From contig NJBN01000005.1 in NCBI GenBank assembly GCA_005223185.1, positions 93,091-157,090 on the forward strand: a DNA stretch of 64,000 bases. The letters run 5' to 3'. This DNA comes from a candidate division LCP-89 bacterium B3_LCP (lineage in GTDB: Bacteria; Electryoneota; B3-LCP). Below, piece after piece: positions 34,645 to 49,144 of the stretch. Under the pieces are notes generated by a model. That model was given only the letters and a program-made list of their open reading frames with translations. It was not told the DNA's origin and ran no database searches. Positions within the stretch are counted from its first letter, which is position 1, and each line of letters opens with the position of its first letter. The position numbers were made by a program, and so were the translations under genes.

Positions 34645-34817
34645 AAGTAATCTCCTTTTATTAACGAGCTAATATGCAGATTTTACTTGCATAGTATTAT
34701 TCTTGTAGTTAAATTTATTGTATAAATAATGGATATTAAAATTCTCTTCGGTCGAAACTTGAATTTCAAAGTTATCATTTAACCCACAATTCCCCATTTT
34801 GCTTCAGGAAATCATCT

Positions 34818-34875: not shown

Positions 34876-35382
34876 ATGAAAGCTAAACCGGTTCGCATCT
34901 GCGACATTTCCAGAATTCTGCGCATATCCAGCACCAGTCTGATATCCTTTCTTCAGGAAAAGGGATACTCTGTTGTGGGGGATTTCCGGTCTCCTGTGTC
35001 CAGCAGGATGCTGGAGCTAATCCAGAACGGATACACCGATGGTCCCCCATTTAAAGAGCTGGATACTATGCTGCCTCAGGCTGAGGAGTGGGAAAAGCAG
35101 AATGATACCACACTGAATAAACTGCATACTCGTCCACCAAAGCCAGAACCAGCTCAAAAAAAAGCTCCTGAAGCGAAACCGAAAAAATACAAACCGCGCA
35201 AACCCGGGTTAATTAGACGCAAGGCACCCGCCTCTTTGGTTTATACCGGACGCATTAAATTAACACCGATAGACCTTGAATTAATTCAGAGGTTATTTGC
35301 ACTGGAAGAACCCGAAAAGATAAAAATTCGTGATCACTTCCGCCGCAATACTATCCTCAAGGCGATAGCGGACATAGATTAA
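34876..35382 (+). CDS. IF2N-like domain protein with shared C-terminal motif
   Basis: A 168-residue basic protein. Residues 5-55 (VRICDISRILRISSTSLISF onward) resemble the small helical N-domain of translation initiation factor IF-2, a nucleic-acid or ribosome-binding fold, but no GTPase follows. A Lys/Pro-rich linker occupies about 85-120. The last 40 residues, with LTPIDLELIQRLFALEEPEK, recur in altered form at the end of the next protein. It is followed 30 bp later by an XRE regulator on the same strand. No function is known to me; DNA or RNA binding is a reasonable guess. Confidence 0.6.
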   Translation: MKAKPVRICDISRILRISSTSLISFLQEKGYSVVGDFRSPVSSRMLELIQNGYTDGPPFKELDTMLPQAEEWEKQNDTTLNKLHTRPPKPEPAQKKAPEAKPKKYKPRKPGLIRRKAPASLVYTGRIKLTPIDLELIQRLFALEEPEKIKIRDHFRRNTILKAIADID

Positions 35383-35412
35383 TCATCAAATAAAAATAAC
35401 AATGGAGAAACA

Positions 35413-35820
35413 ATGTATCGGCAACGATCAAGTATCGACATGGCTGAAGCACTGAAGTACTGGCGTGCTTACAAGGGCTTATCGCAAATGAAGTTAGCTG
35501 AACTGGCTAACACCAGCGCCTTGACTATCAGTCAGTTAGAATCAGGTAAAAGAAGGGGTCGTGGTGCGACTCTGGAAAAGATATTGAATGGCTTGAATAT
35601 AGGCCGCGATGAATTCTTCTCAATGCGTAAAACAGTAGCTGGTACACAGGAAGCTGTCATCTCTGACCAGCCTGTTGAAAAGACGGAAACTACGGTAGTA
35701 AAGAAGGAATCTGCTAGTTTAAGACTCTCGAATCTCGACTTAGAACTGTTGAATCGAGTTCTAAACCTCGACTTCGATGCAAAACTGGAAACACTGCGCT
35801 ATCTGCAGAACTTAGCATAA
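35413..35820 (+). CDS. XRE-family DNA-binding protein with the same C-terminal motif
   Basis: A 135-residue regulator. The Cro/CI-type helix-turn-helix covers about residues 15-68: LKYWRAYKGLSQMKLAELAN, then TSALTISQLESGKRRGRG with the recognition helix. A polar linker follows and the last 33 residues (LRLSNLDLELLNRVLNLDFD and a short helix) align with the end of the preceding protein: both have a DLEL core, an Arg three residues later and a Lys-Leu/Ile step. It likely acts with the upstream gene product. A strong hairpin terminator closes the pair. Confidence 0.75.
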   Translation: MYRQRSSIDMAEALKYWRAYKGLSQMKLAELANTSALTISQLESGKRRGRGATLEKILNGLNIGRDEFFSMRKTVAGTQEAVISDQPVEKTETTVVKKESASLRLSNLDLELLNRVLNLDFDAKLETLRYLQNLA

Positions 35821-35841: not shown

Positions 35842-35910
35842 GGGGCTGTCCTAAAAACGTCACTCTGAGCGAAGCGAAGCGTGACATCTCTTTAGGATGG
35901 CTCTTTTTTT
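35842..35910 (+). terminator. Rho-independent terminator built on a dispersed repeat
   Basis: Arms GGGGCTGTCCTAAA and TTTAGGATGGCTC flank an inner inverted repeat (GTCACTC.../GCGTGAC) and are followed by eight T. The CACTCTGAGCGAAGCGAA core recurs in related form near 61180-61215. Confidence 0.75.
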
Positions 35911-35925
35911 ACCTATCAGGATTAT

Positions 35926-48822: not shown

Positions 48823-49144
48823 GATTGGGGAATATATGAAATTCCCAGGAAGGATGCAAGGGGAAAATGGGGGGGAACGTTAAAGCGTCGAGTGCGGGGA
48901 CTCGGTGGCACTCGGAAATCCGTAGTCCGGGGGGAACAGATTCTACTATCACTTTGTTATTATATAATTTTTGGCTTGGCGAATTAAAATAAAACGGTGA
49001 TAATGTTACCCCCCTGCTAAAGCAAGGGGGATTATTTAGAGGCACCATGAGAAGAGTCGAATTGCTTAAAGCTCCATTATGCGAATGAAATCGCAATATG
49101 TTGGGAACGTAAGCCAATATCTGCAGCGATTCTTGAATATCCAG
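48823..49144. other. Intergenic region upstream of yhhQ with hairpins
   Basis: No gene seen. A GC-rich stem CCCCC/GGGGG around TGCTAAAGCA lies at 49010-49030 and an imperfect stem near 48890-48925; between them is an AT-rich stretch (48950-48990) that may contain the yhhQ promoter. Confidence 0.6.

Follow-up and report, generated by a model that had tools for sequence, protein, structure and literature searches.

The paired genes and their probable transcription unit

The window, by which we mean the whole 64-kb stretch of DNA that was analysed, contains two small genes, here called P1 and P2, which run in the same direction and in the same frame, 30 bases apart and with a single TAA between them. 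The features of the locus are as follows.

34687-34715, + strand: promoter-like element TTGCAT-N17-TAAATT, about 160 nt upstream of P1 (box conserved in the paired loci)
34876-35382, + strand: P1, IF2N-like protein with a C-terminal tail, 168 aa (open reading frame, family alignment, orthologues in 11 genomes)
34888-35037, + strand: IF2N-like domain of P1, residues 5-54, predicted HTH-like fold (Pfam, family profile, AlphaFold)
35128-35241, + strand: polar, basic linker of P1, residues 85-122 (low column identity; partly disordered in the model)
35245-35346, + strand: shared tail of P1, residues 124-157, predicted helical hairpin (hhalign against P2 tails, tail HMM, AlphaFold helices)
35413-35820, + strand: P2, XRE-family HTH protein with a C-terminal tail, 135 aa (open reading frame, HTH_31/HTH_3, family alignment)
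35440-35622, + strand: XRE helix-turn-helix domain of P2, residues 10-70 (Pfam, structure match)
35713-35814, + strand: shared tail of P2, residues 101-134, predicted helical hairpin (conservation, tail HMM, AlphaFold helices)
35843-35911, + strand: intrinsic-terminator-like hairpin with a U-run, after P2 (MFE -27.1 kcal/mol, z -3.9 against shuffles)

The upstream promoter-like box and the downstream terminator hairpin suggest that P1 and P2 form one transcription unit. A CTTGCAT box (CTTGTGT in one case) followed by TAWATT lies at -161 to -216 from P1 in all eight of the loci where the two genes are paired. Elements of the class TTGCAT-N15-18-TATATT number 44 in the window's genome and two in the reversed control; within the window they are found at 34687-34715 and at 48831-48859 (- strand), and many of the spacers end in TTGTTG or similar. 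Because the class is common genome-wide, the element upstream of P1 looks like an ordinary promoter, and the class itself like a main promoter class of the organism. Our search for a shared operator upstream of the pair returned only this genome-wide class. The tip of the terminator hairpin (35863-35881) is a copy of a dispersed palindrome with a TCTGAGCGAAGCGAAG core, which occurs 11 times in the genome and never in the reversed control. Rfam gave no match in the 64-kb window.

Domain structure of P1 and P2

P2 lies above the Pfam cut-offs for XRE helix-turn-helix domains, with matches to HTH_31 (4e-8, 33.8 bits, cut-off 27) and HTH_3 (1e-7, 32 bits, cut-off 23). By structure this part matches the restriction-modification controller (C) proteins C.Esp1396I (E 8.9e-4, TM(target) 0.83) and C.BclI, and by sequence the DNA-binding domain matches HipB, HigA and C proteins. 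The best NCBIfam match is a HipB-like antitoxin subfamily, at a weak score of 32 against a cut-off of 71.65. In its DNA-binding domain P2 resembles small XRE repressors, the C proteins among them; the latter are not known to carry a tail of this kind or to have a partner of the IF2N type. The best-conserved segment of P2 is its tail, with a mean identity of 0.72 compared to 0.58 for the HTH region and 0.14 for the linker. Two relatives have an unusual build: one, in the family that we call f2, carries two tandem XRE domains ahead of a single tail (G022:C78, L016:1486-2169), and another, at a contig end (G006:C122, L014:2-358), has a linker, basic and AT-hook-like, built from tandem copies of a unit about 22 residues long (RGRKPKAALAAAPTEAAPxPKK).

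The N-terminal part of P1 taken alone matches the Pfam domain IF2_N (PF04760) weakly (E=0.11, 12.8 bits, cut-off 25.3). Six of the ten members of the P1 family match it, the best at E 1e-4, and the P1-family profile recovers, in most genomes of the phylum, long frames of about 880-1050 residues with E-values down to 1e-16, which are presumably the IF-2 (infB) genes. From these sequence matches, the N-terminal ~50 residues of P1 are probably a diverged IF2_N domain, homologous to that of IF-2. P1 differs from IF-2 in having no GTPase part and, in its place, a regulator-type tail; moreover, IF2_N is matched by a long frame distinct from P1, presumably infB, in most genomes of the phylum and in that of the window. 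The initial annotation had described two proteins with different front ends and matching ends, and the first part of that description holds for both genes, firmly for the XRE domain of P2 and, for P1, through the support of its relatives. Foldseek searches with P1 gave no match below E 0.8; the weak ones include the MerR-type protein BldC and IF-2 of a ribosome complex.

In the AlphaFold model, P1 starts with an IF2N domain of HTH-like fold, followed by another pair of helices, a linker of low order and a tail of two helices. The mean column identities of the family alignment are 0.47 for the IF2N domain, 0.17 for the linker and 0.43 for the tail. To model both proteins together we used a fused chain of P1, 11 residues and P2 in which the TAA between the genes was read as Q, purely as a computing device. 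The fused model consists of separate confident domains, with pLDDT values above 90 for most of the IF2N domain, the XRE domain and both tails, and a pTM of 0.35. The IF2N helices span residues 8-15, 19-28 and 43-52 (block pLDDT 91-96). Both tails are predicted to form a two-helix hairpin, with helices at residues 131-141 and 145-167 in P1 and at residues 286-296 and 300-313 of the fused chain in P2 (pLDDT about 92), and P1 carries an extra helical extension of about 11 residues beyond the shared part. The P1 tail has a pLDDT of 82-89 in the model of P1 by itself and of 91-94 in the fused chain, a gain that, with alignments that differ between the two runs, may weakly favour pairing.

Homology and distribution of the shared tail

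The tails read ...RIKLTPIDLELIQRLFALEEPEKIKIRDHF... in P1 and ...SLRLSNLDLELLNRVLNLDFDAKLETLRYL... in P2. Judged from the two window sequences by themselves their match is suggestive only, as BLASTP gives E=0.004 and 13 of 2000 whole-protein shuffles equal it. We therefore built family alignments of ten P1 and fourteen P2 sequences from whole-genome searches and compared the tail profiles with hhalign. They align over 35 columns with a score of 54.7 (P=4.7e-13), while the best of 200 column shuffles scores 16.9 and a reversed profile 12.9. This comparison bears out the matching ends that were noticed at the outset and shows them to be a domain of about 34 residues that is homologous between P1 and P2. 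The tail HMM finds P1 at E=1.1e-14 (G000:C1:128335-128436) and P2 at E=7.2e-16, each of these sequences being itself in the profile. The pattern common to both tails, with some exceptions, is [IL]-D-L-E-[IL]-[ILM]-x(3)-[LF]-x-[LM]-x(4)-K. Of the core first proposed, a DLEL with an Arg three residues on and a Lys, the DLE and the Lys are conserved; the Arg is not general, being nearly constant in XRE tails and replaced by Q or A in some IF2N-like tails. The Pfam scans assigned the tail to no family in any of the members scanned, and the only solved structures that resemble it are designed proteins, at E of about 2. The amphipathicity of its helices is not above that of shuffles.

In the following, f1 denotes the window's own family (six genomes) and f2 the fourth tail-bearing family (nine genomes). 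Searched with the combined tail profile, every one of the six f1 genomes gives two genes and no more, P1 and P2, and so do one genome from f6 and one from f7. Seven of the nine f2 genomes have XRE genes that match the profile and three have an IF2N-like gene that does; f3, f4, f5 and f8 have no match. Among 386 genomes that include other phyla, the only hits outside the phylum were four weak matches of 18-21 residues to unrelated proteins (E 0.001-0.008). The tail is thus recurrent, confined to four families of one phylum and specific to two protein families in the 386 genomes, and we reject the reading of it as a generic helix. A third family carrying the tail was looked for with the profile and none was found. 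Other f2 hits were rejected as a new family and are XRE paralogues (G022 C41 and C137, G011 C146), and a hit in G033 C23 is a 13-residue chance match. The f2 genome G022 also holds, at C56:3892-4032, a degraded copy, in which what is left of an XRE-tail gene has no open frame. A contig scan of 84,980 species yielded 12 relatives of P2, including ones labelled LCP-89, Calditrichaeota, Caldithrix, Zixiibacteriota SURF_9 and Tariuqbacter. A published study assigns the last to the FCB group, within the candidate phylum Electryoneota/AABM5-125-24 (PMC10439189).

The two tails recur together: the IF2N-like tail is present in 11 of the 15 genomes with an XRE tail and in none of the 24 without (Fisher 8e-7, a value overstated by the relatedness of the genomes). 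The constant adjacency of the genes, proposed as a check in the initial annotation, is seen in 8/8 loci of f1, f6 and f7, even though the flanking genes differ between these families, and breaks down in f2, where the genes are unlinked. There the XRE gene sits between genes for a ComM-type Mg-chelatase and an AMP-ligase in most genomes with both sides on the contig; in three genomes, G006, G019 and G028, the IF2N-like tail gene lies elsewhere, behind a gene for an M28 peptidase. No IF2N-like tail gene was found in four f2 genomes that have the XRE tail (G011, G016, G022 and G033), an absence that is uncertain in draft genomes; two of these four have extra XRE copies. Because four f2 genomes keep only the XRE tail, the tail appears useful to the XRE protein alone, which suggests that it serves P2 by itself, most simply for oligomerisation.

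Such a reading could be taken further, in that P1 and P2 might each homodimerise through a tail of common ancestry without working together. The P1 and P2 tails do form two separate clades in a short alignment of low resolution, and the solitary and duplicated XRE genes of f2 agree with it. It leaves unaccounted for the adjacency of the genes in every locus of three families with very different flanks, and the fact that the IF2N-like tail never occurs without the XRE tail, and we consider it distinctly unlikely. The small size of the two genes, their common operon, the XRE domain and the weak HipB-like match would also be features of a type II toxin-antitoxin pair with an XRE antitoxin. However, P1 matches only IF2_N and no toxin fold by Pfam, NCBIfam, PHROGs or PADLOC, the pair is single-copy at a stable chromosomal place in six of six f1 genomes, and the genes are apart in f2, all of which makes a toxin-antitoxin pair very improbable. 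A search for a defence or phage origin returned only generic XRE matches (PHROGs, PADLOC), and no restriction-modification genes lie directly beside the pair.

A possible partnership through paired hairpins

In Bacillus, a helix pair common to SinR and SinI hooks into a four-helix bundle and supports both homo- and hetero-oligomers; SinR forms homo-oligomers through the shared segment, and the SinR-SinI heterodimer is unable to bind DNA (PMC3163267). P1 and P2 resemble SinR/SinI (and SlrR) of B. subtilis in that an XRE regulator shares with a second protein a helix pair at the C-terminus, about 30 residues long. The likeness covers the position of the tail, the predicted hairpin and the presence of a partner with the same segment: a two-helix C-terminal hairpin on an XRE protein with a separate partner, which marks the SinI type, is what AlphaFold predicts here. 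The tail is not a SinI domain (PF08671), a candidate that we rejected, since hhalign against B. subtilis SinI and SinR gives scores of 12.5 and 7.0; Pfam scans of all P1 and P2 members gave no SinI hit either. The systems also differ in that P1 has, besides the hairpin, an IF2N-like domain and a long linker, where SinI consists of hardly anything else than the hairpin, and in the phylum in which they are found. We therefore liken P1/P2 to SinR/SinI in the way it may work and do not identify it as a member of the SinI family.

Our preferred interpretation, to which we give a probability of about 0.5, is a small chromosomal two-gene regulatory operon in which P2 oligomerises via its hairpin and P1, with a paralogous hairpin, modulates P2. 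P2 would be an XRE-type DNA-binding regulator with its C-terminal helical hairpin as the oligomerisation module, and the tail is, judging from the models, most likely a two-helix dimerisation tail. P1 would bear the paralogous hairpin behind its IF2N/HTH-like domain and flexible linker, and so act through a copy of P2's tail, pairing with P2 and also with itself. The mixed P1-P2 complex may alter the oligomeric state or the DNA binding of P2, as SinI does with SinR, and the IF2N-like domain could add a second nucleic-acid or partner contact. Dimerisation, the heterocomplex and the modulation of DNA binding are thus what we infer by analogy.

The partnership is favoured by homologous tails on only two protein types, by the adjacency in 8/8 loci and by conserved ends around drifting linkers. 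The separation of the P1 and P2 tail clades looks as old as the families, with no later exchange apparent, which is what a duplicated pair retained over a long time should show. Against pairing stand the unlinked genes and the four XRE-only genomes of f2, the shuffle-level amphipathicity, the lack of sequence relationship to SinI and the absence of coevolution between the P1 and P2 tails within a genome, for which 308 of 720 permutations were as good as the true pairing.

The absent coevolution agrees with the main rival explanation, in which both tails dock independently on the same face of a widespread third protein, for example a subunit of RNA polymerase or a protein of the ribosome or nucleoid, and not on each other. 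In both proteins a flexible linker leads to the tail, which forms the very C-terminus; its acidic DLE core and Lys are conserved, and unlinked genes and XRE-tail-only genomes would be natural for independent docking. However, the prediction for the conserved part is a folded hairpin of two helices and not a short linear motif, two protein families with one copy each per f1 genome are few for a general dock, and the strict adjacency in three families fits a direct partnership better. Docking is, in our assessment, possible and rather doubtful. The interpretation given in the initial annotation, a common docking partner or mutual assembly, is partly supported, and both options are plausible.

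The tail pair itself is real, recurrent and specific. Our literature search retrieved no report of an IF2N-type protein as the antagonist or partner of an XRE repressor, and as far as that search shows the combination is undescribed; the initial claim of novelty holds for the IF2N-type protein in this role and not for the shared hairpin, a principle known from SinR/SinI (PMC3163267). If the pairing is true, P1/P2 would be a second case, unrelated in sequence, of a repressor controlled by a partner that copies its assembly segment, and would extend the SinR/SinI principle to an uncultured FCB-group lineage. We put forward only tentatively the idea of a lineage-specific transcriptional switch, in which the shared hairpin would bring the IF2-derived HTH-like domain and the XRE domain to the same or neighbouring DNA and the IF2N fold would have a regulatory role outside translation, binding DNA or RNA.

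P1 probably represents a recruitment of the IF-2 N-terminal domain outside IF-2. Two f2 genomes contain another IF2N-like protein of 364-383 residues (G019:C106, L135:750-1844; G033:C148, L136:771-1922), which begins like IF2_N, continues with a long linker, ends in an Mrr_N domain and is without the shared tail; it is a second recruitment of IF2N outside IF-2.
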